From positions 3,968,001 to 4,032,000 of the forward strand of contig NZ_AP022610.1 in assembly GCF_010729665.1 (NCBI RefSeq): a stretch of DNA of 64,000 bases. The letters are read 5' to 3'. The notes beneath the pieces are model-generated. The model was not told the DNA's origin. It saw only the letters and a program-made list of their open reading frames with translations, and ran no database searches. Below are positions 8,766-40,135 of the stretch, in pieces; within the stretch, counting starts at the first letter, position 1, and each line of letters starts with the position of its first letter. The DNA is from Mycolicibacterium madagascariense (GTDB taxonomy: Bacteria > Actinomycetota > Actinomycetes > Mycobacteriales > Mycobacteriaceae). Made by a program: the position numbers and the translations under genes.

Positions 8766-9389
8766 TCAGTCGAATTCGGGAGATTCGTGCCGCGTGCGCT
8801 TCAGCTCGAAGAAGTGCGGATACCCGGCGAAGATCACCGACGCGTCCCACAGCTTGCCGGCTTCCTCGCCACGCGGGATGCGGGAGAGCACCGGACCGAA
8901 GAACGCCACGCCGTTGACGTGGATGGTCGGGGTGCCGACGTCGTCACCGACGGCGTCCATGCCGTCGTGGTGGCTCTTGCGCAGCGCGTCGTCGAACTTG
9001 TCGCTGGTGGCCGCCTCGGCCAATTCGGCGGGCAGGCCGACCTCCTCGAGCGATTCGCTGATGACGCGGTGGAAGTCGGGATCGGACTCGCGATAGTTCT
9101 GGTTGTGGATCCTGGTCCCCATCGCGGTGTACAGCGGGCTCAGAACGTCGCTGCCCTTCGCCTGCTCGGCGGCGATCGCGACGCGCACCGGGCCCCAGGC
9201 CTTCTTCATCATCTCCTGGTACTGCTCGGGCAGGTCGCGGCCCTCGTTGAGCACCGCGAGGCTCATGACGTGGAATTCGACGTCGATGTCGCGCACCTTC
9301 TGCACCTCGAGAATCCAGCGCGAGGTGATCCAGCACCAGGGGCACAGCGGGTCGAACCAAAAACCGGCGACATCCTTGTTGGCCATCAT
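8766..9389 (-). CDS. DsbA-like mycothiol-dependent oxidoreductase (Rv2466c homologue)
   Basis: Thioredoxin-fold protein with an inserted helical domain. The active site Cys16-Pro-Trp-Cys19 sits in [14 protein letters not shown], and cis-Pro in GTPTIHVNG. In M. tuberculosis the orthologue is a mycothiol-dependent reductase of the SigH regulon and activates the thienopyrimidine TP053. The start at 9389 (MMANKD) follows GAGAGG by 5 bp; the next ATG, 9386, is equally possible. An in-frame extension to 9467 was rejected because it would run through the SigH-type promoter. Divergent from pepN, as in M. tuberculosis. Cytosolic, no signal peptide. Role: repair of oxidised thiols under disulfide stress. 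Confidence 0.93.
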
Positions 9390-9432
9390 CGAATCCTCTC
9401 GGCAGGCGGTGGGAGACAGAGTTCCGTTCAGC

Positions 9433-9461
9433 TCAACCAAGCATGCCCCGGCTGTGTTCCC
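9433..9461 (-). promoter_or_regulatory. Putative SigH-type promoter for the DsbA-like gene
   Basis: On the minus strand GGGAACA is followed after 18 bases (counted from GGAAC) by GTTGA, the GGAAC-N17-19-GTT pattern of the mycobacterial SigH/SigE group. The predicted transcript starts a short distance before the ribosome site, leaving a leader of roughly 35 bases. It agrees with the known SigH control of Rv2466c. Confidence 0.65.
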
Positions 9462-9471
9462 CCACACCGTC

Positions 9472-9477
9472 TAGGCT
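9472..9477 (+). promoter_or_regulatory. -10 box of a likely leaderless pepN transcript
   Basis: TAGGCT matches TANNNT and ends six bases before the GTG start of pepN, the spacing typical of leaderless mycobacterial messages. No Shine-Dalgarno sequence lies upstream of the GTG, consistent with this. Confidence 0.6.
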
Positions 9478-9483
9478 TCCGTC

Positions 9484-12054
<2,571 letters not shown>

Positions 12055-28801: not shown

Positions 28802-30459
28802 GGCCGTCCCTTCTTGGCCGTGTTCGGTTGCGCCGCAGCCTTTTTCGCGGGAGCCTTCTTGGCCGGCGCCTTCTTGGCGGGCGCCTTCTTCGCGGGCGCC
28901 TTCTTGGCGGGCGCCTTCGCGGCGGGTGCCTTCGCGGCCGGCGTGCCGAGACGTTCGTACAGCGGCGCACTCGGCAGGTCACCCCGGGGCCAGTCCCGTA
29001 GCGTATCGAGGTAGAGCTGGCGCACCTCGGCGATGCGTTCCTCGAGGTTCTCGGTGGTCCAATCGTCGACCGGGATCGGCGGGTAGACCGCCACGTCGAC
29101 GCTGCCGGCGTTGAACGTGGTCGAGTTCCGCTCCGCGATGATCTCAGCGTTGCGAATCACGATGGGCACCAGCGGCACACCGGCCGCCATCGCGATGCGG
29201 AACGGTCCCTTCTTGAACTCGCCCACCTCGGTGGTGTCCAGACGCGTGCCCTCGGGTGCGATCAGCACCGAAATACCCTTGCGGGCAAGCTCTTCGATCT
29301 TGTGCAGGCTCTCGACAGCCGCCTTCGGATCGTCGCGGTCGATGAACGCGGCGTCCAGCACCCGGCCGACGGTTCCCATCAGCGGGTCCTTCTCGAGTTC
29401 CTTCTTGCCCACCGAGGTGAAGTTGTCGCTGATCAACCTGCCCGCGATGAACGGGTCGACCTGGTTGCGATGGTTGAACAGGAAGACCGCGGGCCGGGCG
29501 GCCTTCAGGTTCTCTTCGCCGGTGACGTTCAGGTCGATTCCGACGGCCGCCATCAACAGCCGAGTCCACGCCGAGGTGAAGAAGTTCACCCCCGTGCGAC
29601 GATTGCGCGTCAGCAGGCCGACCCCGAGGGCTCCCGCCGCGGCGGGGACCAGCGAGGCGATGCCGGCCACCGTGCGCAGCTGCGCCACCGGGCTACTGCC
29701 GCTGCGGCTGTTGACCTTCAGCACCGGCCATCCACGCTTGGCGGCGACGGCCGCCAACTTGCCCGCCGGGTTCGTCGGACGCGGATTGCCGACGAGGTAC
29801 ATCAGCGCGACGTCCTCGTCGCCGTCGGCATAGAAGTAACTCTTGGCGAGGTCGATACCGTGGTCGGCCGAAAACGTCTGCACCGCACGCGCTTTGCCCG
29901 GCCCCCAGATGATCGGCGTCTTGACCTCACCGGTGATGCGGCCGTCGTCGTCGGTCTCGAAGACGTTGCTCAGCACGTTGTCGATGCCGAGGAATCTGGC
30001 GACCGGGTCCACCTGGACGGTCAACGCCGATGAGCTCAGCACGACGGTGTGGCCGCGCGCCTGATGGGCGCGCACCAACGCCCGCATCTCGGGATAGATC
30101 CGCTTCTGGACGTGCTGGACGAACAGCCGCTCCCCCAGTTCGTCGAGGTCGCTGATCGAGTTGCCGTGCAGCATGCGAGCGCCCTTGCCGATGAGATCCT
30201 CGAACTCCGACCGTCCGAGCTGATGGTTGAGCCCCGCCTGGACCATGCCGATGAACTCGCCGACGCTCATCTGCCCGCGGCGCAACCGATCCTGCGTCAT
30301 CAGGACGCCGGTGTATCCGGCGACGAGGGTGCCGTCGAGGTCGAAGAACGCCCCCACCTCGGGGCCCTGCGGGCTCGCCTCGACCTCCGCGACCGATCCC
30401 GGCAAGCGGAGGACGACGTTGTCGCCGTGGCGGCTGTTCTGCCCGTTCTGCGAACTCAT
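28798..30459 (-). CDS. plsC: HAD-phosphatase/1-acylglycerol-3-phosphate acyltransferase fusion with KAPAKKA tail
   Basis: Bifunctional-looking protein of 553 residues. N-terminal HAD-IB (SerB-like) domain with Asp40-x-Asp42 (FFDLDGT), SSSA motif II and YADGDEDV motif III. C-terminal PlsC domain from about residue 290 with NHRNQVDP (His330, Asp335) and PEGTR (403-406). The last 45 residues are a Lys/Ala/Pro tail of repeated AKKAP units, like those of mycobacterial HupB. Expected activities: acylation of lysophosphatidate, and possibly dephosphorylation of the product or another phospholipid. Corresponds to Rv2483c. ATG overlaps the upstream stop as ATGA, and its stop overlaps plsB. Confidence 0.95.
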
Positions 30460-31949
30460 TGCGCGGCACCCTCATTGGTCGAGATGGACACCGACGTCGG
30501 CGCGATTGCCGCATCGGAGGTGAACGAGGCAGGCGTCGACCGTCCGTCGCCGCCGAGCGCGAGGACCTCGTCGAAGCCGGCTTGGAGGCATCGCGCCCAC
30601 AGCGCTTCGTCGGCGATCGCCGCGCGGTCGTAACGGGTGGTGATCGTGCAGTAGCCGGCGCGCGACACCAGGACGACCATCATGGCCACCCCCGGCAGCG
30701 GCCCAATCCCGTAGTGGCGCAGGATCTTCGCACCCGCGATGAACGTATCGCCCGGGTAGATGGGCACGTTGCTCGCCTGGACGTCGGAATTGACCACCGA
30801 CCCGGCCACCGACTCGAGGATGGCGTCGGGCAGCAGGCTGATCAACGGCGCCATGGCACCGACCATGTCGATGGCGCGTTCCTCGCGCTTGACCATCATC
30901 TGCTTGCGCACCTTCTGGACGCGCTTGGCCGGATCGACGACGCCGACCGGCGCGGCGAGGTTGACCCCGGCGAAACGGTTGCCCCCCGCGGGGTCGTCGT
31001 CGGAACGCAAGTTGACCGGGACGGCCATGGGCAGGGTGGCCACGGGAATGCCCTTGGCTTCGTGGTAGAGCCGCAGGGCCCCGCACAGGCCGGCGAGGTA
31101 GGCATCGTTGATGGACCCGCCCGCCGCCTTCGACGCCCGGTGCAGATCGCCGAACACGATGTCGATCGCCTCGGTGCGCGATGCCAGGCTGCGCCGGCGC
31201 AGCAACGGCGACGGGTCGGCGACCGGGCCCATCACGCGGGCGCTCGACCGCGCGTAGTTGACCACGCCGCCGACCGCGGACACCGGATCGCGGACGACCC
31301 GTCCGAGTACCGAGGCCGCGCCACCGACCGCTCCGCGCAGGCCACCCGCGAGTGAACCGGGGAGCCGGCTCAAGCCCTCCCGCATGAGGTCATTGGGCGA
31401 GAGGTCCTCGGGGATGGGGAGCGGCGCGACGTCGGCCGGTGGTGGGTCGCGTTCGAGGTCGTAGATGTTGGCAAACATCTCGATGGCGCCGACGCCGTCG
31501 GTGACGGCATGGCTGAGGTGCAGCATCGACGCCGCGGTGCCGTCGGCCAGGCCCTCGACGAGCGTTGCCGTCCAGAGCGGCCGGGAGATGTCCATGGGCG
31601 ATTGCACGGCAACCTCGGCCAGGTCGAGCACCTCACGCAGTGTCCCCGGCGCGGGCACCCGCACCCGCCGGACGTGGAAGTCGATGTTGAAGTCGGGGTC
31701 GATGACCCAGCGTGGGGCCGCCGTCGGCAGCGTCGGCATGACGACCTTCTGCCGCAGGCGCAGAACCTTGCGCGACGCGTTCTCGAAGCGGGACCGGTAG
31801 CGCTCCCAGTCCGGCGCAGCGTCGAGCAGCTCGACGCCCATGATTCCCGAGCGGGTGCGCGGATTTGCCTCACCACGGTGCAGCAACTGATCGACGGCAC
31901 TCAGTTCCTCGGGCAGTTCGGCCGCGTCCATCTCCGGCACGTCGGTCAT
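30456..31949 (-). CDS. Wax ester synthase/diacylglycerol acyltransferase family protein
   Basis: WS/DGAT of 497 residues, expected to form triacylglycerol or wax esters from acyl-CoA. The family starts with LSAVDQLLHRGE-type sequence, the catalytic block reads LSHAVTDGVG (Ser146-His147 to Asp151-Gly152), and later PLWTATLVEG and VNLRSDDDPAGGNRF follow the usual order. The motif is normally HHxxxDG: the second, essential His is kept but the first is Ser. Corresponds to Rv2484c. ATG at 31949 is chosen; the frame stays open through the antisense of the tRNA gene to 32231, which is not real coding. First cistron of the lipid operon. Confidence 0.93.
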   Translation of the reverse strand: MTDVPEMDAAELPEELSAVDQLLHRGEANPRTRSGIMGVELLDAAPDWERYRSRFENASRKVLRLRQKVVMPTLPTAAPRWVIDPDFNIDFHVRRVRVPAPGTLREVLDLAEVAVQSPMDISRPLWTATLVEGLADGTAASMLHLSHAVTDGVGAIEMFANIYDLERDPPPADVAPLPIPEDLSPNDLMREGLSRLPGSLAGGLRGAVGGAASVLGRVVRDPVSAVGGVVNYARSSARVMGPVADPSPLLRRRSLASRTEAIDIVFGDLHRASKAAGGSINDAYLAGLCGALRLYHEAKGIPVATLPMAVPVNLRSDDDPAGGNRFAGVNLAAPVGVVDPAKRVQKVRKQMMVKREERAIDMVGAMAPLISLLPDAILESVAGSVVNSDVQASNVPIYPGDTFIAGAKILRHYGIGPLPGVAMMVVLVSRAGYCTITTRYDRAAIADEALWARCLQAGFDEVLALGGDGRSTPASFTSDAAIAPTSVSISTNEGAAQ

Positions 31950-31990
31950 CGTTTGCCGATCCCCTTTCGTCACCACTGAGTGCGGAGCCC

Positions 31991-31996
31991 ACGCTA
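31991..31996 (-). promoter_or_regulatory. Candidate -10 box for the lipid operon
   Basis: Minus-strand TAGCGT fits TANNNT and lies about 42 bases before the acyltransferase ATG, between that gene and the divergent tRNA. An AAAGGGG element precedes the ATG by about 11 bases. No -35 is obvious. Confidence 0.35.
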
Positions 31997-32062
31997 GTCG
32001 GCGGCTTGTCTGTGCGGGTCGCATTACCGGTGTTGCAAGGCTGTCGGCAGGTGGGATGGAGA

Positions 32063-32068
32063 TAGACT
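32063..32068 (+). promoter_or_regulatory. -10 box for tRNA-Arg
   Basis: TAGACT fits TANNNT and lies 12 bases before the mature tRNA 5' end, a normal distance for a short leader trimmed by RNase P. The sequence TTGCAA at 32033 is 24 bp upstream, too far for a standard -35. Confidence 0.45.
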
Positions 32069-32080
32069 CTCCTGCGCGTT

Positions 32081-32157
32081 GCCTCCGTAGCTCAGTCGGA
32101 TAGAGCAAGGGCCTTCTAATCCCTAGGTCGCAGGTTCGATTCCTGCCGGGGGCGCCA
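32081..32157 (+). tRNA. tRNA-Arg (anticodon TCT)
   Basis: A 77-base cloverleaf. Acceptor GCCTCCG pairs with CGGGGGC (one G-U), D stem GCTC/GAGC, anticodon loop CTTCTAA with TCT at 32115-32117, T arm GCAGG-TTCGATT-CCTGC, discriminator G, and encoded CCA at 32155-32157. The base pair closing the anticodon loop (C-T) is a mismatch; otherwise all stems close. It reads AGA/AGG, rare codons in this GC-rich genome. The antisense strand gives the well-known false peptide GRNRTCDLGIRRPLLYPTEL. No integrase or repeated tRNA 3' end was found nearby. Confidence 0.97.
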
Positions 32158-32227
32158 GCGTGCGATGGCAGACGTTTCGTCGTGAGGCCTGTGTCGGTCG
32201 TGCCGAGGGTGGACACCGTCGCACCCC

Positions 32228-32809
32228 TCATCCCCCGAGCAGGATCGCGACCCCCACCACGATGAGGACGACCGGCAGTAGGACGTGGCCCCAGCGGCTC
32301 AGGAGGCTGGCGATGGCCGGCCGGGTGGCCAGGTACCTGCCGGCGACGAGCAACCCGGCGAGCAGAACGAGGAACACCACCACGTACAGGGCGGTACGGG
32401 TGGCCCCGGACGTCGCGAACACCGGCACGTAGACGCCGACGTTGTCACCGCCGTTGGCAAACGTGACAGCCGCGACCGACCACGTCGTCGGTCCGCCGCC
32501 GCGGCGCACGCCGTCATCCGCGCTCCGACGGTGGCGCCACGTCTGCCAGGCGGCGTTCAGACCGAGGGTCAGCGGAATGAGGCCGAGGTAGTGGATCGAG
32601 GACTCCGGCAAGAACGTCGCGCCGTAGGCGGCGGCCACGGCGATGGCAAGGATGCCGACGAACCCCAGGTACTGGCCGACCGCGATGCGTGCCGTTGCTC
32701 CGTCCCTGCCTGCGCCCTGCGCGAAGAACAGGGCCAACATCACCAGATCGTCGACATTGGTGACCGCGAACAGGATTGCCGCCTGTAGGGCTAGACCCAG
32801 AGTCGTCAT
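32228..32809 (-). CDS. CadD-family cadmium resistance/cation transporter-like membrane protein
   Basis: A 193-residue membrane protein with about six hydrophobic segments. The helix-1 motif AVTNVDDLVMLALFFAQ and the mid-protein TFANGGDNVGVYVP, with paired acidic residues in the membrane, are those of the CadD/LysE-like family. Staphylococcal CadD gives cadmium resistance; the substrate here is unknown. ATG at 32809 is preferred over an upstream TTG at 32818. It follows the giant repeat gene by 181 bp on the same strand, and its end lies 70 bp from tRNA-Arg. Confidence 0.85.
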   Translation of the reverse strand: MTTLGLALQAAILFAVTNVDDLVMLALFFAQGAGRDGATARIAVGQYLGFVGILAIAVAAAYGATFLPESSIHYLGLIPLTLGLNAAWQTWRHRRSADDGVRRGGGPTTWSVAAVTFANGGDNVGVYVPVFATSGATRTALYVVVFLVLLAGLLVAGRYLATRPAIASLLSRWGHVLLPVVLIVVGVAILLGG

Positions 32810-32990: not shown

Positions 32991-35900
32991 TCAGGAGCCA
33001 CTTTTGGGAGTCGTCGGTCGGTCTTCAGCCGGCACTGACGTGGGTTCATCGGAATCGGCCGCCTTACCCGCGGCTGCGCTGGGTCGCGCTGCGCCTCCGC
33101 TGTGCGACGCCGCGCTCGGAGCGTCGTCGACGGCCTTGGCGTCTGATGCGTCGCCGTCCCCATCGCCCTCTCGCTCGTCGACGTCGGCGAGTCGGCCGTG
33201 TTTCCCGACGCGGTCCTGTTGCTTGAGAGCGTCGACCTCTTCCTTGCTCGAGTGTGCGTCGCTACTGGCGGCATCGAGCGAGCCATCGTCGTGTGAGGCT
33301 CCGCTGCCGCGCAGCGGCGTGTCAGAAGCAGCGGCCTTCGAAGCATCGCTGACGTCGCCATCATCGGAGCCATCCGCACTCCGGCTACCGGGAGCGGCGA
33401 CCGCGTCGGCATCCTTGACTCGAGGAACCTCCACGAAGTCTCGAGCCGTGCGTGCCTCGGGAGCCGTCGACGTCTCAGCTGCGTTCTTGGCAGCCGCCTG
33501 ACTCTTGGCCAACTCGTAGAGATCCTTTGCACGTCTAGCTCCATCTATCGCCTTGTTTCTGGCGTTCGAGGCGTCGGTCAGTTCGTTCTGATATGGCACC
33601 AACCTGGCCAGGTACTCGTCGTTCGTCTGGTTGGTCTGACGGCCTGTGACGGAGGGGTCTTCGTAATCTCGCAGGGCCTTGTCGTATCTCGCCTGAGCAT
33701 CCGCGAGGGCCTTGTCCGCTGCCTCAGAGGCCTTCCGAGCTTCTTCGACCTTGTCCGAGGCGGCGTTCTTGTCCGCTGCCGCTTTATCGTCGGCCGCTTT
33801 CTTGTCCGCGGTGGCCTTCTCATCAGCCGCCTTCTTCTCATCCGCAGCCTTCTCATCTGCAGCCTTCTTGTCTGCCGCGGCCTTTTCGTCAGCAGCCTTC
33901 TTCTCGTCGGCCGCATTCTCATCTGCAGCCTTCTTGTCTGCCGCAGCCTTCTCGTCGGCGGCTTTCTTATCAGCGGCAGCTTTCTCGTCAGCAGCCTTCT
34001 TCTCAGCTGCAGCCTTGTCCGCGGCAGCCTGGTCGGCCGCAGCCTTCTCGTCGGCGGCTTTCTTATCAGCGGCGGCTTTCTCGTCAGCGGCCTTCTTCTC
34101 AGCTGCAGCCTTGTCCGCGGCGGCCTGGTCCGCCGCAGCCTTCTCGTCAGCAGCCTTCTTGTCAGCGGCAGCTTTTTCATCAGCAGCTTTCTTCTCAGCT
34201 GCAGCCTTGTCCGCGGCGGCCTGGTCGGCGGCGGCCTTCTCGTCAGCCGCCTTCTTGTCCGCGGCAGCCTTTTCATCAGCGGCCTTCTTCTCAGCTGCAG
34301 CCTTGTCCGCGGCAGCCTGGTCCGCCGCAGCCTTCTCGTCAGCCGCCTTCTTGTCCGCGGCAGCCTTTTCATCAGCAGCCTTCTTCTCCGCCGCGGCCTT
34401 GTCCGCGGCAGCCTGGTCCGCCGCAGCCTTCTCGTCGGCAGCCTTCTTGTCGGCGGCCGCCTTTTCATCAGCAGCCTTCTTGTCGGCGGCAGCTTTCTCA
34501 TCAGCGGCCTTCTTGTCCGCTGCGGCCTTGTCCGCGGCAGCCTGGTCCGCCGCGGCCTTCTCGTCGGCAGCCTTCTTGTCCGCGGCAGCTTTCTCATCAG
34601 CGGCCTTCTTGTCCGCTGCGGCCTTGTCCGCGGCAGCCTGGTCCGCCGCAGCCTTCTCGTCAGCAGCCTTCTTCTCGTCGGCCGCCTTCTCATCTGCAGC
34701 CTTCTTGTCCGCGGCGGCCTTGTCCGCGGCGGCCTTGTCCGCGGCGGCCTTCTCGTCGGCAGCCTTCTTGTCGGCGGCGGCTTTTTCATCGGCAGCCTTC
34801 TTGTCCGCGGCGGCCTGGTCGGCGGCGGCCTTCTCGTCAGCAGCCTTCTTGTCCGCGGCAGCTTTCTCATCAGCGGCCTTCTCGTCGGCAGCCTTCTTGT
34901 CCGCCGCGGCCTTGTCCGCGGCAGCCTGGTCCGCCGCAGCCTTCTCGTCAGCAGCCTTCTTGTCCGCGGCAGCCTTTTCATCAGCGGCCTTCTTGTCCGC
35001 GGCGGCCTTGTCCGCGGCAGCCTGGTCCGCCGCAGCCTTCTCGTCGGCAGCTTTCTTATCGGCGGCGGCCTTCTCATCAGCAGCCTTCTTATCGGCGGCA
35101 GCTTTCTCATCAGCGGCCTTCTTCTCAGCTGCAGCCTTGTCCGCGGCGGCCTGGTCAGCCGCGGCCTTCTCGTCGGCCGCCTTCTTCTCGTCAGCAGCCT
35201 TCTTCTCGTCAGCGGCTTTTTCGTCAGCAGCCTTCTTGTCCGCGGCAGCCTTTTCATCAGCGGCCTTCTTATCGGCTGCGGCCTTGTCCGCGGCAGCCTG
35301 GTCCGCCGCAGCCTTCTCGTCAGCAGCCTTCTTCTCGTCGGCCGCCTTCTTCTCGTCGGCCGCTTTCTCATCAGCAGCCTTCTTATCGGCGGCAGCTTTC
35401 TCATCAGCGGCCTTCTTGTCCGCGGCGGCCTTGTCCGCGGCAGCCTGGTCCGCCGCAGCCTTCTCGTCAGCAGCTTTCTTATCGGCGGCGGCCTTCTCAT
35501 CAGCAGCCTTCTTGTCCGCGGCGGCTTTTTCATCAGCAGCCTTCTTCTCAGCTGCAGCCTTGTCCGCGGCGGCCTGGTCAGCCGCGGCCTTCTCGTCAGC
35601 AGCCTTCTTCTCGTCAGCAGCCTTCTTCTCGTCAGCAGCCTTCTTCTCGTCGGCCGCCTTCTCATCAGCAGCCTTCTTGTCCGCCGCGGCTTTGTCCGCG
35701 GCAGCCTGGTCCGCCGCAGCCTTCTCGTCGGCGGCTTTCTTATCGGCGGCGGCTTTTTCATCAGCGGCCTTCTTCTCGGCTGCGGCCTTGTCCGCGGCAG
35801 CCTGGTCGGCCGCGGCCTTCTCGTCGGCGGCCTTCTTGTCGGCGGCAGCTTTCTCGTCAGCAGCCTTCTTCTCAGCTGCAGCCTTGTCCGCGGCAGCCTG

Positions 35901-37427
35901 GTCCGCCGCGGCCTTCTCGTCGGCAGCCTTCTTCTCGTCGGCAGCCTTCTTCTCGTCGGCCGCCTTCTCATCTGCAGCCTTCTTGTCCGCTGCGGCCTTG
36001 TCCGCGGCAGCCTGGTCCGCCGCAGCCTTCTCGTCGGCAGCCTTCTTCTCGTCGGCCGCCTTCTCATCTGCAGCCTTCTTCTCAGCTGCGGCCTTGTCCG
36101 CGGCAGCCTGGTCCGCCGCAGCCTTCTCGTCAGCAGCCTTCTTATCGTCAGCAGCCTTCTTCTCGTCAGCAGCCTTTTTCTCGTCAGCAGCCTTCTTCTC
36201 GTCGGCCGCCTTCTCATCTGCAGCCTTCTTGTCCGCCGCGGCCTTGTCCGCGGCAGCCTGGTCCGCCGCAGCCTTCTCGTCAGCAGCCTTCTTATCGGCG
36301 GCGGCTTTTTCATCAGCAGCCTTCTTGTCCGCTGCGGCCTTGTCCGCAGCAGCCTGATCCGCTGCAGCCTTCTCGTCAGCGGCTTTCTTATCGGCGGCGG
36401 CCTTTTCGTCAGCAGCCTTCTTCTCATCGGCTGCCTTCTTCTCATCGGCTGCCTTCTTCTCGTCGGCCGCCTTCTCATCTGCAGCCTTCTTGTCCGCCGC
36501 AGCCTTCTCGTCGGCGGCTTTCTTATCGGCGGCGGCTTTTTCATCAGCGGCCTTCTTCTCGGCTGCGGCCTTGTCCGCGGCGGCCTGGTCGGCCGCAGCT
36601 TTCTCGTCAGCAGCCTTCTTGTCCGCGGCCGCCTTTTCATCTGCAGCCTTCTTCTCAGCTGCCGCCTTGTCCGCCGCCGCCTTGTCCGCCGCGTCCTTAT
36701 CTGCAGCAGCCTTGTCCGCCGCAGCCTTCTCGTCGGCAGCCTTCTTGTCCGCCGCAGCCTTCTCGTCAGCAGCCTTCTTCTCAGCCGCAGCTTTCTCGTC
36801 AGCAGCCTTCTTGTCCGCGGCCGCCTTATCATCTGCAGCCTTCTTCTCAGCTGCCGCTTTGTCCGCCGCCGCCTTGTCCGCCGCGTCCTTATCTGCAGCA
36901 GCCTTGTCCGCGGCAGCCTTGTCGTCAGCAGCCTTCTTGTCGGCCGCAGCCTTCTCAGCGGCCGCCTTCTTGTCATCCGCAGACTTCTTGGCGGCAGCCG
37001 CCTTCTTCTCGTCAGCCGCCTTCTTCTCGTCAGCCGCCTTCTTCTCGTCCGCTGCCTGCTTATTGGCCTTGCCCGCATCAGAGCCCGTAGGCGGCAGAAG
37101 GTGTTTCACCGCTTGGGCGAGTGCATCGCCGATTTCCTTGAACGGATCCTTGAACCCGGGAGGTGCCTTCAGCCAACCGTTGTTGATTGCCAGACTGAAC
37201 GGGTACACGCTGTGCGCCTTCGCGTTTGGCCCCAGGCCGATCGCCAGACTCAGGGGCGCACTCTTGCAGCCATACCCGAGATTGAAACCGGAGAACGAAA
37301 CGCACGTGGCCGCTGCTTCCGGGGCGGCGCCCACTGCGGTACCCACCAACGTACTGGTGGTCACGGCCCCCGAGATCAGCGCCAATGTGCGAATGGCTCG
37401 CTTGCTTCCAGCCCGGTGCTTGGCCAT
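32991..37427 (-). CDS. Giant secreted Ala/Lys/Asp/Glu repeat protein
   Basis: 1478 residues. A Sec-type signal (MAKHRAGSKRAIRTLALISG, then a hydrophobic stretch ending AAPEAAA) is followed by a short domain with two Cys and YadA-like LSLAIGLGPNAKAHS/FSLAINNG segments (about residues 42-75), then KDPFKEIGDALAQAVKHLL. Residues about 124-1223 are an uninterrupted repeat of A, D, E, K and Q, with no Gly, Pro, Cys or Trp, predicted as very long helix. The C-terminal 255 residues begin helical (VEEARKASEAADKALADAQ) and become a Ser/Asp-rich disordered tail without LPxTG or membrane anchor. GAAGG precedes the ATG. Function unknown; a surface stalk or spacer is inferred. TolA similarity is compositional. 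Confidence 0.85.
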   Translation of the reverse strand: MAKHRAGSKRAIRTLALISGAVTTSTLVGTAVGAAPEAAATCVSFSGFNLGYGCKSAPLSLAIGLGPNAKAHSVYPFSLAINNGWLKAPPGFKDPFKEIGDALAQAVKHLLPPTGSDAGKANKQAADEKKAADEKKAADEKKAAAAKKSADDKKAAAEKAAADKKAADDKAAADKAAADKDAADKAAADKAAAEKKAADDKAAADKKAADEKAAAEKKAADEKAAADKKAADEKAAADKAAADKDAADKAAADKAAAEKKAADEKAAADKKAADEKAAADQAAADKAAAEKKAADEKAAADKKAADEKAAADKKAADEKAADEKKAADEKKAADEKKAADEKAAADKKAADEKAAADQAAADKAAADKKAADEKAAADKKAADEKAAADQAAADKAAADKKAADEKAADEKKAADEKKAADEKKAADDKKAADEKAAADQAAADKAAAEKKAADEKAADEKKAADEKAAADQAAADKAAADKKAADEKAADEKKAADEKKAADEKAAADQAAADKAAAEKKAADEKAAADKKAADEKAAADQAAADKAAAEKKAADEKAAADKKAADEKAAADQAAADKAAADKKAADEKAADEKKAADEKKAADEKKAADEKAAADQAAADKAAAEKKAADEKAAADKKAADEKAAADKKAADEKAAADQAAADKAAADKKAADEKAAADKKAADEKAADEKKAADEKKAADEKAAADQAAADKAAADKKAADEKAAADKKAADEKAADEKKAADEKKAADEKAAADQAAADKAAAEKKAADEKAAADKKAADEKAAADKKAADEKAAADQAAADKAAADKKAADEKAAADKKAADEKAAADQAAADKAAADKKAADEKAADEKAAADKKAADEKAAADQAAADKKAADEKAAADKKAADEKAAADKAAADKAAADKKAADEKAADEKKAADEKAAADQAAADKAAADKKAADEKAAADKKAADEKAAADQAAADKAAADKKAADEKAAADKKAADEKAAADKKAADEKAAADQAAADKAAAEKKAADEKAAADKKAADEKAAADQAAADKAAAEKKAADEKAAADKKAADEKAAADQAAADKAAAEKKAADEKAAADKKAADEKAAADQAAADKAAAEKKAADEKAAADKKAADEKAAADQAAADKAAAEKKAADEKAAADKKAADEKAAADKKAADENAADEKKAADEKAAADKKAADEKAADEKKAADEKATADKKAADDKAAADKNAASDKVEEARKASEAADKALADAQARYDKALRDYEDPSVTGRQTNQTNDEYLARLVPYQNELTDASNARNKAIDGARRAKDLYELAKSQAAAKNAAETSTAPEARTARDFVEVPRVKDADAVAAPGSRSADGSDDGDVSDASKAAASDTPLRGSGASHDDGSLDAASSDAHSSKEEVDALKQQDRVGKHGRLADVDEREGDGDGDASDAKAVDDAPSAASHSGGAARPSAAAGKAADSDEPTSVPAEDRPTTPKSGS
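33757..37057 (-). repeat. Coding repeat array of 10/11-residue modules with 96-bp higher-order unit
   Basis: The modules are DKKAADEKAAA (11 residues) and QAAADKAAAE (10 residues), with hexads DEKKAA interspersed. Counting the Asp-Gln dipeptide as a phase mark gives 22 marks from 34029 to 36585. Ten of the 21 intervals are exactly 96 bp (32 residues, 10+11+11), including four in a row from 34029 to 34413. All others are longer by multiples of 3, most often by 33 bp. Alanine and lysine-flanking codons vary synonymously between copies, so the units are not recent identical duplicates. Confidence 0.9.
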
Positions 37428-37854
37428 CGACCTTCTCTTCTTCAGTATGAATACGACTGATGCAGACCTGCATCAACGCGAAAAGGTAACAGCGGCAACA
37501 CGAATCGTCTGAGGCGCAATTGAACAGCGATACGACGCGGGCGGGCGACCAGGATGGCCGAGTGGCCGCTCGACCGGTCGGGATCATCCGAGCCCTGGGC
37601 CGGCGATCGGCCTGCGGCCCAAAGTGAATTTGGTTGCCGAAGAACGCGATCCGGTCACGACGTAAGAATGCAGGGAGCGCCCTGGCGTCACCACGGGCGA
37701 AGAACCCCATCACACGTCAACCGTGTCCGTCTCCCCACCCGCGGCGTCCGCGGCATTTGCACACCCCGCCGAGCAAGCGAGCCCACGAGCCCGGCCGCAG
37801 CGGCGGCACCCCGTGCTGGGGATTCAGGAGCGTCGATGCGGGTAAGGGCTACAC
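37428..37854. other. 427-bp divergent intergenic region
   Basis: Lies between the repeat-protein start (minus) and the flavoprotein start (plus). The 100 bases next to the repeat protein are less GC-rich than the surroundings and hold the 18-bp palindrome at 37458-37475. The remaining stretch contains only overlapping open frames with no family-like sequence or ribosome site. No tRNA, insertion sequence or small gene was seen. Confidence 0.6.
37458..37475. promoter_or_regulatory. Perfect 18-bp palindrome upstream of the repeat-protein gene
   Basis: TGATGCAG-AC-CTGCATCA, 8-bp arms with a 2-bp centre, 31-48 bases before the ATG of the repeat protein on its upstream side. On the minus strand it begins one base inside TTGATG, a possible -35, with TATTCA 17 bases further. 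The position suits an operator for a dimeric repressor. Confidence 0.5.
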
Positions 37855-39036
37855 ATGCAGCCCGCCAGCACCTTCTTCGACGTTCTCATCGTCGGCGGCG
37901 GCAATGCCGGAATCAGCGCTGCCGCGCTTCTCCTCCGACGCGGCATCACCAACGTCGCCGTCATCGAACCCCAACTCGTCCACACCTACCGCCCGCTACT
38001 GTCCTACGTCGGCGCCGGTGAGGCGTCGCTCGACCGCGCCGAACGCACGCAGCGCTCAGTGACGCCCAAGGGGTGCAGGTGGATTCGCGATGCCGCGGTC
38101 GCCGTGGACGCGACCGAGCACACGGTGCGCTGTGCCAGCGGCGCGGTCTACGGCTACCGCGACCTCGTGCTCGGCACCGGCCTGGTGCCCGACGACGAGG
38201 CACTGCCGGGCAGCTGCTCCGCAGCCGCCTCGCCTGCGGTTTCCAGCAACTACCTCGATCGCGCTGAGAAGACGTGGCAGCTGGTGCGGTCCATGCGACG
38301 CGGCCAGCATGCCGTGTTCACCGTGCCGCGCCCCCCGGTGAGCTGCACGGGCACGACGATCAAGCCGCTGTTCCTCGCCGCCGCCCGCTGGAGGGGGCTC
38401 GGCGTCGACATCACCCTGGTCATCGACCGACCCCATCTGCTCGGTGTGCCCGACCTGGATCGCAGGCTGCAGCGGGCGCTCGACGACCACGGCGTTCGGG
38501 TGCTGCACGGCACCGCGGTCACGGCGCTGCACCCCGAGCGGAACGCGGTGACGGTGAGCGGACCGACGGGCACCACCGACGTCGGCTACGACATGCTGCA
38601 TCTCGTCCCGCCCTTCCGCGGACCGGATTGGGTGTGTGATTCCGGTCTGGCCGCCGACGGCCTCGGGCTGGTCGACGTCGACCCGCGCACGTTCCGTCAT
38701 CGCGCCCACCCCGACGTCTGGGCCGCCGGCGACGGCGCGACGGTGGACACCGACCCGTCCGGCGGAGCGTTGCGCCGGCAGGTCAAGATCCTCGTCGGCA
38801 ACCTGCTCGCCGCACGCGCCGGCGACGGTTTCGAGGAGTACGACGGGTACACCGTGGCGCCGATCGCCACCGACGCCCACCGACTGATCGCCGCCGAGTT
38901 CGACCGCACGGGGACGGTGACGTCGTCGCTGCCGTCGGTCCTCGACCCTCTGAAGCCACGGCGTAGCGCGTGGGCGTTCGATCGCTACGCCCTGCCGCAG
39001 AGCTATTGGCACCTGATTCTGAAGGGTCGTATCTGA
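37855..39036 (+). CDS. FAD-dependent pyridine nucleotide-disulfide oxidoreductase, SQR-like
   Basis: A 393-residue flavoprotein with the FAD-binding LIVGGGNAGISAA at residues 11-23, a second nucleotide-binding region, and the late VWAAGDGA motif. Overall it resembles sulfide:quinone oxidoreductases: PPVSCTGTTIKP carries Cys164, equivalent to one active-site Cys, and Cys121 is also present. The third SQR cysteine is missing, since the usual YDGYTSCPL reads YDGYTVAPI, so classical sulfide oxidation is doubtful. The next gene, a radical SAM protein, begins one base after the stop, which implies a shared transcript. Cytosolic or membrane-peripheral; no signal peptide. Confidence 0.88.
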   Translation: MQPASTFFDVLIVGGGNAGISAAALLLRRGITNVAVIEPQLVHTYRPLLSYVGAGEASLDRAERTQRSVTPKGCRWIRDAAVAVDATEHTVRCASGAVYGYRDLVLGTGLVPDDEALPGSCSAAASPAVSSNYLDRAEKTWQLVRSMRRGQHAVFTVPRPPVSCTGTTIKPLFLAAARWRGLGVDITLVIDRPHLLGVPDLDRRLQRALDDHGVRVLHGTAVTALHPERNAVTVSGPTGTTDVGYDMLHLVPPFRGPDWVCDSGLAADGLGLVDVDPRTFRHRAHPDVWAAGDGATVDTDPSGGALRRQVKILVGNLLAARAGDGFEEYDGYTVAPIATDAHRLIAAEFDRTGTVTSSLPSVLDPLKPRRSAWAFDRYALPQSYWHLILKGRI

Positions 39037-39037
39037 G

Positions 39038-40135
39038 ATGACCATGCCCGCGTCGACCGCCGACGCACCCGTGCTGTGGGTACCGTCGCGGGTGCTCGTC
39101 ACCCGCTCGGCCGCCGAACTCCCCCACGGCGCCGACATCGTCGCGCGCTGTGAAGCCGCCGGTGTCAACGACATTGAGCTGCTCTCGGGCGATCGTCTTC
39201 CGTCGTTGAAGGGTGAGGACGAGCGGTCGACCTACGCCATGGCCAAGCGCACGCTGGCGGTGGTGGTCGCACCACCGTCGAAGCTTCGGCCCCAACCCAT
39301 TCCGCCCAGCGCCGACTGGCGCATCGACCTCGCCACCGGATGCCCGGGCCATTGCCAGTACTGCTACCTCGCCGGCTCGCTGTCCGGGCCGCCGATCACG
39401 CGGGTGTATGCGAATCTGCCCGAACTCCTGTCGCAGATGGACGATTACGTGGGGCAGGGCACCGTCACGTCGGCCTCGATCGACCGCGCCGACGAAGGAA
39501 CGACCTTCGAGGTGTCGTGCTACACCGATCCCCTTGCGCTGGAGCATCTCTCGGGTTCTCTGTCGACGACGATCAGACACGTCGGCGAGCACTCCTGGGC
39601 CGGGCCCGTCGGGCTGCGCTTCACCACGAAGTACGACAACGTCGCGCCGCTGCTCGACCTCCCGCACGGTCGCCGGACCCGCGTTCGCGTGTCGGTCAAC
39701 GCCGACGAGATCGCCGGCCGCTTCGAAGGCGGTACGGCGCGGCTGCCCAAGCGCATTCACGCGCTGAGGCGTCTGGGCCTGGCGGGCTACCGCATCGGTC
39801 TGACCATCGCGCCGATCATGCCCGTTCCGGATTGGCGGGAGGGCTACGGCGCCCTGCTCGCCGACGTCGCCGAGGCCGTCGCCGACGTCCCCGATCTGGA
39901 CCTGACGGTCGAATGCATCACCCACCGCTTCACCGCCATCAGCAAGGACGTGCTGACCGGCTGGTACCCGAGGACCAAGCTCGAGATGGACGAGCCCAGT
40001 CGCACGCGCAAGTTCGGCAAGTTCGGCGCCGCGAAGTACGTCTACCCCAAGGACACGATGTCCGAGCTGCGGTCGTGGTTCACGGCCGAACTCGAGCAGA
40101 CCCTGCCGCAGGCCCGGCTCCTGTACTGGACGTGA
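39038..40135 (+). CDS. Spore-photoproduct-lyase-family radical SAM protein
   Basis: A 365-residue radical SAM protein with the 4Fe-4S motif Cys102-x3-Cys106-x2-Cys109 (GCPGHCQYCYL) and Cys161 in EVSCYTDPL, at a distance similar to the hydrogen-donor cysteine of Bacillus SP lyase (Cys141). The SPL family repairs the UV lesion 5-thyminyl-5,6-dihydrothymine using S-adenosylmethionine. Mycobacteria do not form Bacillus-like spores, so the physiological substrate here may be a UV photoproduct in vegetative or dormant cells, or something else. It starts one base after the flavoprotein stop; an ATG six bases further is also possible. The flavoprotein could supply electrons to the cluster; inference. 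Confidence 0.88.
   Translation: MTMPASTADAPVLWVPSRVLVTRSAAELPHGADIVARCEAAGVNDIELLSGDRLPSLKGEDERSTYAMAKRTLAVVVAPPSKLRPQPIPPSADWRIDLATGCPGHCQYCYLAGSLSGPPITRVYANLPELLSQMDDYVGQGTVTSASIDRADEGTTFEVSCYTDPLALEHLSGSLSTTIRHVGEHSWAGPVGLRFTTKYDNVAPLLDLPHGRRTRVRVSVNADEIAGRFEGGTARLPKRIHALRRLGLAGYRIGLTIAPIMPVPDWREGYGALLADVAEAVADVPDLDLTVECITHRFTAISKDVLTGWYPRTKLEMDEPSRTRKFGKFGAAKYVYPKDTMSELRSWFTAELEQTLPQARLLYWT

Follow-up and report, generated by a model that had tools for sequence, protein, structure and literature searches.

A predicted helical rod with a Lys-to-acid pairing code in a family of secreted proteins of Mycolicibacterium madagascariense

Stable single alpha-helices have been described for ER/K segments, for myosin-6 and for designed sequences such as EK3. 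A paper on designed single helices (PMC5347031) describes them as lacking a hydrophobic seam and names K-to-E(+4) as the orientation that stabilises short peptides more. It also reports that replacing charges by Ala gave no single helices, with EK2 (AEEAKKA) apparently dimerising and EK1 (AAEAAKA) being soluble at very low salt only. A second system to compare is domain II of TolA, a long Ala/Lys/acid-rich helix at the envelope. A third is the set of extracellular proteins Giant1-5 of Apilactobacillus kunkeei, which are 3,000-8,000 aa long and carry DUF5776 C-termini; PMC12863079 presents a lower-confidence model of Giant5 with a 2,000-residue single helix, which its authors say might be a di- or trimer.

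Here, we compare these systems with the product of gene 32991..37427 (minus strand) in a 64,000-nucleotide stretch of DNA, the whole of which we call the window. Like the helices of PMC5347031, its rod is long, has many i,i+4 opposite-charge pairs and shows no hydrophobic seam; unlike them, it would be secreted and bacterial, is 47% Ala and pairs almost solely from Lys to the acid at +4, with Asp about twice as frequent as Glu, no Arg, and units of 5 or 6 residues. With TolA domain II it shares a long, Ala/Lys/acid-rich and probably helical part with a predicted role at the envelope, but it has no TolA C-terminal domain, and both the pairing and the distribution of Ala differ. Giant1-5 (PMC12863079) and the window family have in common a Sec signal peptide, very long repeats and the occurrence of both solenoid domains and helical repeats. 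In Giant1-5 the solenoid and the helices coexist, whereas in the window family one stands in for the other. The kind of protein is already known, both as single-helix rods and as modular giant surface proteins; the strict code, the repeat swap and the series of paralogs look new. No description of the module family was found in the open-access literature searched (titles and the beginnings of abstracts).

Layout of the gene and its surroundings

The gene is one uninterrupted frame of 1478 codons, from an ATG at 37427 to a stop at 32991-32993 on the minus strand, and encodes 1478 aa; coordinates, strand and length are exact, and the first agree with an earlier note on this DNA. The genome is 5.94 Mb in two contigs. 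A Shine–Dalgarno-like purine run, gaagaagagaaggtcgATG (37431..37442, minus strand), can be read directly upstream of the ATG, and a scan of 37400-37900, which reaches sigma-70-type promoters only, found none. The plus-strand frame 33712-36357, which runs across the repeat, is taken as the mirror of the same repeat and not as a gene.

Residues 1-40 (37308..37427, minus strand) form a signal peptide with a predicted cleavage site A-x-A(40)/T-C. In an alignment of 14 rows from this genome, M1, R13, A38, A40, C42, G47 and C54 are invariant, and the residue preceding Cys42 is S or T in 13 and N in one; the invariant A-x-A suggests signal-peptide cleavage. The shared N-terminal module follows at residues 41-83 (37179..37307, minus strand), with a Cys42-x11-Cys54 loop and then SAPLSLAIGLGPNAKA, and is the part to which profile matches in the genus are found. 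By reading, there is no lipobox (the signal peptide ends A-x-A-T-C), no LPxTG-type C-terminus (the end is PTTPKSGS) and no C-terminal membrane helix. A signal peptide, a small Cys-containing domain and the lack of a visible C-terminal anchor had been noted before, and all are borne out here, the signal peptide being of ordinary appearance and the cysteines being C42 and C54.

Behind the module, residues 96-111 (37095..37142, minus strand; FKEIGDALAQAVKHLL) are predicted to form an amphipathic helix. Their hydrophobic moment is 0.62, a value reached by 0/500 composition shuffles, and 11 of the 12 other intact paralogs give 0.52-0.77 with at most 6/500 shuffles as high (P1407 is the exception); these counts are flattering, because the real sequence was scanned for its best window and the shuffles were not rescanned. 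For 12 of the 13 intact members, the prediction is thus a segment that would be strongly amphipathic if helical. A low-confidence fold of residues 1-143 (mean pLDDT 51, three sequences), which takes in only about 21 residues of the rod, places strands within 42-83 and helices at 95-110 and 118-142.

The charged, predicted alpha-helical rod occupies residues 123-1222 (33762..37061, minus strand). It is followed by a non-repetitive, probably helical segment, residues 1223-1320 (33468..33761, minus strand), recognised and delimited by eye, and by a Ser/Ala/Asp/Pro-rich acidic tail that is probably disordered (residues 1321-1478; 32994..33467, minus strand). All residues after the rod together carry a net charge of -18.

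The flanks of the gene look ordinary. According to Pfam, one holds cadmium-transporter family, WS/DGAT, HAD/acyltransferase and glycerol-3-phosphate acyltransferase genes, and the other an FAD oxidoreductase, a spore-photoproduct-lyase family gene and an acetyltransferase. Among the loci fetched, 11 contain a relative of the divergent FAD gene, at 66-72% identity. A conserved neighbourhood was rejected, since the 1.5-kb flanks of these loci contain no module, Cad gene or photolyase-like gene (tblastn, E <= 1e-5); one of the 11, L074, has a weak WS/DGAT match in its flank. The spore-photoproduct-lyase family protein is encoded at window positions 39038-40132 (PF20903, E 9.8e-87), and mycobacteria are generally regarded as non-sporulating. 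The mechanical ORF list gives the opposite WS/DGAT gene as 30456-32231, and a tRNA-Arg(TCT) at 32081-32157 (plus strand) falls within its 5' part; the start of that gene is hence probably further downstream.

The pairing code of the rod

The earlier note spoke of about 1100 residues of Ala, Lys, Asp, Glu and Gln, and this is correct, as these five account for 1097 of the 1101 residues (A 517, K 262, D 194, E 101, Q 23). It also offered the term polyelectrolyte, which suits the acidic tail and not the rod, since the charges of the latter almost cancel out (net -33 in 1101 residues), which makes it a polyampholyte.

The rod can be divided into 205 pieces that start with Ala, mostly of 5 or 6 residues, the main ones being AADEK, AAADKK, AAADK, AADEKK, AAADQ and AAAEKK. 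An Asp or Glu stands at +4 after 258 of 261 Lys; permuting the order of whole units leaves 207.5 +/- 3.6 such pairs, with a maximum of 220 in 2000 trials. The order of the units is far from random, and the repeat is a code, more than a composition. The excess arises from a rule of succession: a unit ending in KK is followed by AAD[DE] in 78/80 cases, a unit with just one terminal K by AAA[DE] in 85/96, and a unit with terminal Q by AAAD in 22/23. The reverse pairing, an acid with Lys at +4, occurs in only 2/294, and like-charge pairs are rare (2 at +3 and 11 at +4).

Alanine recurs with a period of 5.42 residues (power 23.7), and its power is at most 0.41 at 3.4-3.8 residues, compared with a mean power of 0.27. 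The mean unit of 5.36 residues corresponds to about 176 degrees of helix turn, which puts the Ala patches on alternating faces of the helix. The Ala moment is 0.050 against 0.096 +/- 0.005 in residue shuffles; as permuting the units gives a nearly equal value, this halving is an effect of unit length. A coiled coil was rejected for this rod, with only 3 L/I/V/M in the Ala/Lys/acid-rich stretch and no Ala seam.

Two marks of single alpha-helices are accordingly seen in the rod: i,i+4 opposite-charge pairs beyond what composition gives (258/261 against a maximum of 220), and the absence of a hydrophobic seam, as judged from the Ala moment and the Ala power at 3.4-3.8 residues. Of a single alpha-helix, a coiled coil and disorder, the pattern agrees best with the first. 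The description as a secreted alpha-helical repeat protein gains support from the signal-peptide features of the paralogs and from a Lys-to-acid(+4) grammar without an Ala seam. One continuous helix is suggested, and would measure 1100 x 0.15 nm = 165 nm (about 160 nm in the earlier note). With 47% Ala, the rod may self-associate; the two failing Ala-rich designs have an Ala face and the rod has none, which is the only difference in its favour.

The likeness to TolA raises the question of a spacer inside the envelope, stretched between inner and outer membrane as TolA domain II is. TolA chains are indeed the best PDB matches to the rod (phmmer, E 1.5e-7), and both are Ala/Lys/acid-rich, but the match is confined to the low-complexity rod. 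Pfam finds no TolA C-terminal domain in the whole protein up to E = 1, and the helical stretch of TolA taken from the PDB match, counted in the same way as a control, pairs 29/54 Lys/Arg with an acid at +4 against 258/261. A helix of 165 nm would in addition be far longer than the envelope is wide, and we consider such a spacer improbable.

Composition alone also draws matches from nucleoid proteins. The protein scores 114.3 bits with NCBIfam NF038053 (cut-off 80) and 51.7 bits with Pfam HC2 (cut-off 40), and the paralog P1418 reaches NF038053 at 55.1 bits, below the cut-off, so that an automatic annotation as a histone H1-like nucleoid protein is possible. H1-like histones are strongly basic and cytoplasmic, whereas this rod is net negative and is preceded by conserved signal-peptide features. 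Residues 1-122 and 1210-1478 on their own match neither HC2 nor NF038053, and the score therefore comes from the A/K runs. These matches are compositional and should be disregarded, and we give the histone reading next to no credence; one should be aware that current profile libraries would score a secreted protein of this kind as a histone.

A further possibility is that the gene is a low-complexity sequence enlarged by replication slippage, without selection for a function. Its GC3 is low (0.71, against 0.87-0.90 in seven neighbouring genes), sister copies have broken frames and the residues after the rod have no match but themselves in 148 genomes (see below for both). The codons speak against it. 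The AADEK unit is present in 63 copies with 21 DNA versions. In 90 AAD[DE] units, position 3 is Asp in 90/90, encoded by GAC in 57 and GAT in 33 and never by GAG or GAA, while position 4 is Glu in 86/90. At position 3 the third base varies while Asp is kept, a purine being enough to give Glu, and this is evidence of selection acting on the amino acids. With the non-random unit order and a frame open across 1478 codons, slippage has, in our view, a small chance of being the explanation.

One N-terminal module before two kinds of repeat

The earlier note recommended searching with the two ends alone. For the N-terminus this revealed a family, and the protein, there presented as a lone giant, is instead one of 13 genes of its genome with an intact common module, in a family that extends through the genus. 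Residues 1-122 give 16 matches in the own genome, and a profile 17. By reading, these are the 13 intact-module genes (the window gene included), one module split over two frames, the divergent P1385, which has lost much of the module, and L033:7586-8776, which has the signal peptide only. Module identity is up to 49% to paralogs, and 53% over residues 1-74 to a member from genome G013 (E 6.2e-14). By eye on the ORF lists, no recurring partner was seen around the paralogs.

Each of the 13 own members continues as a different charged and probably helical part, with a K+D+E content behind the module of 0.21-0.46 in the 14 own-genome members measured. Rods of A, K, D and E like that of the window follow the module in P1407, P1418 and P1422, and mixed regions or a mainly acidic tail in others. 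Rod length is very different: under the threshold applied, an Ala/Lys/acid-rich segment is absent from P5650 and is 56 residues long in each of P1417 and P5080. The rod of P4458 has hydrophobic residues at a spacing of seven (42 such spacings) and looks more like a coiled coil, which is the reading we keep for it.

Some copies deserve separate mention. P1418 and P1422 (L034:5909-7189 and 9043-9966; 1.42 Mb) stop within their rods, and the repeat goes on in other frames; at L036:3300-3700 (4.45 Mb) it is the module that is split over two frames. These may be broken copies, assembly errors or on/off switching. L033:7586-8776 looks secreted and has a family-like signal peptide without the Cys module; by eye, its AQQEYDAITTP piece resembles pieces of P1407 and P1417. 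P5080 (L040:5834-6820) has two NGPCPECD CxxC motifs in its charged region, unseen in the other paralogs printed.

With the C-terminus the same recommendation was less productive. The part behind the rod (residues 1223-1338) found only itself in 148 genus genomes, the own one included. AQxEYDAxTTP-like pieces can be seen by eye in three own-genome proteins, and BLAST supports one pair, P1407/P1417, over 27 residues (E 0.002-0.003). Homology among the C-termini of the paralogs was rejected, as this 27-residue pair is the only one that BLAST returns with the N-terminal modules set aside.

Beyond this genome, the residues 1-122 search finds the module in 12/36 relatives of the same genus and in 0/24 genomes of other genera, and the profile finds it in 66/297 sampled genus genomes, the own one included. 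Within the order, one genus out of the 55 sampled has it (E <= 1e-5). Named module-bearing records elsewhere are from Mycobacterium sp. and uncultured Mycolicibacterium; they come from a pattern scan that needs closely similar modules, and 2/39 pattern matches were confirmed in the contig scan. Plasmids and phages gave no match, and neither did viral contigs by pattern and tblastn, so a mobile origin of the module was rejected.

The module proteins of the genus share with the window protein the signal-peptide features, the two-Cys loop and the first strands, then run into an elongated repeat, and many have a charged tail. We fetched 111 distinct members from outside this genome (de-duplicated by about 60 module letters) and 21 more, 132 in all and a part of the module matches listed. 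In these, the module leads into neutral repeats rich in Gly, Asn, Ser, Thr, Val and Ile, and no charged rod was found among the 132; the type of repeat was judged by composition and by reading the printed parts. Their K+D+E content is 0.03-0.18 as compared with 0.21-0.46 in the own-genome members, two ranges that nearly touch (0.18 and 0.21) and whose starting points for the count differ slightly; at the outside extreme, the values of L107 and L067 are due to acidic tails. Where these proteins have a neutral solenoid-like repeat after the module, the window protein has its A, K, D, E, Q rod. One solenoid-type query matches the own genome at only the 13 module places and aligns with the window gene in the module region only (query 8-77).

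The outside repeats appear solenoid-like. A low-confidence single-sequence fold of L041 (mean pLDDT 51, as poor a model as that of the window N-terminus) has a strand at every 9-10 residues along much of the chain, a spacing as in a beta-solenoid. Foldseek returned 0 matches at E <= 0.001 with this model, which is too weak for use; its upper rows include many proteins that we presume to be beta-helices. The solenoid-like relatives may resemble the YadA head of trimeric autotransporters. Pfam gave 0 families, the YadA head included, for five outside members (L041 and L042 up to E = 10, three others up to E = 0.1), and NCBIfam 0 families for the one tested.

The amphipathic segment has no clear homologue in the 111 outside members, the best being L042 at E 0.013 (profile, filters off). 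L067, L107 and L136 have a solenoid-like repeat, then a Trp-Pro-Phe segment with the look of an amphipathic helix, then a long acidic tail, which is the part order of the window protein minus the rod. We rejected a homology between the window protein's segment and the helices that precede the acidic tails in L067 and L107; neither of these two is among the profile matches listed, and the resemblance is one of layout only.

In a quick tree of 72 modules (13 own and 59 outside; 85 columns), the own modules form one group with an SH-aLRT of 95. With a better model and 66 columns, the group receives 83/84 and is present in 87% of 200 bootstrap trees. Both trees have few columns and mostly weak forks, and were built with the outside members thinned to 59 of 111, without the 21 fetched later and without P1385. 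Compared over 3.2 kb around rpsG, the nearest of the genomes scored are G090 and G035 (90%), neither of which has a module match among the matches listed; four others reach 91-92% over a shorter 2.6-kb part, and one of these, G175, has the solenoid-like member L137. As 140/396 genomes are without a score in this comparison, a closer relative may exist. The simplest story is one repeat replacement followed by multiplication of the gene, and the direction from solenoid to charged part is suggested by the breadth of the solenoid type. In genome G307 (L117, L123) there are 16 module matches, several of them close together, and the members fetched are solenoid-like; the module family expands there too.

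Proposed role at the cell surface

The likeliest reading, to which we assign a probability of roughly one half, is a surface rod that is tethered by its N-terminus and carries an acidic tail, in line with the stalk or spacer considered in the earlier note. The protein would be secreted through Sec; it consists of the two-Cys module, with its cysteines probably in a disulphide, the amphipathic segment, the coded rod of about 1100 residues and the acidic tail. The module and the amphipathic helix would hold the rod at the mycobacterial outer envelope, and the rod, as one semi-rigid single alpha-helix of up to about 165 nm, would lift the tail off the cell. Together with sisters of other lengths it would form a brush, charged and hydrated, that keeps the waxy surface at a distance from its surroundings and may affect clumping, adhesion or phage access. 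That one cap precedes two rods so different in kind is in keeping with a division into an exporting and attaching cap and a spacing rod.

Some of the same features would also suit a released extracellular polyampholyte in a biofilm or hydration matrix, comparable to an LEA-type protectant. The AxA motif, the lack (by reading) of a lipobox, sorting signal and C-terminal membrane helix, and the near-neutral rod (net -33 of 1101) are what one would expect of such a polymer, and its units of 5 and 6 residues are reminiscent of the 11-residue LEA pattern. Searched against Pfam up to E = 1, the entire protein gives HC2 only and no LEA family, however, and a conserved module and amphipathic segment would seem superfluous for a simple protectant; we rank release second and regard it as rather unlikely.

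For the family as a whole, the surface-rod reading can be extended, tentatively. On one occasion in this lineage, the charged part would have taken the place of the solenoid-like repeat that the wider family has, the gene being multiplied afterwards. A genus-wide secreted beta-solenoid family would thereby have given rise, in a single event and behind the same export-and-attachment cap, to alpha-helical rods, now encoded by at least 13 genes and ranging from almost none to more than 1000 residues. This would be a natural length series of surface single alpha-helices, that of the window being written in a strict Lys-to-acid(+4) code, and a tunable charged brush on a waxy cell. We see this fuller account as possible but short of probable.

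If it is right, the rods would offer a regular source, in nature, of single helices that are very long and keep to one pairing orientation. These would be of use as molecular rulers and would allow a test of which orientation of salt bridges stabilises long helices in spite of a high Ala content. The effects of rod shape could also be separated from those of rod chemistry, and a surface-protein family would have changed its fold class, from a beta rod to an alpha rod, while retaining its cap.
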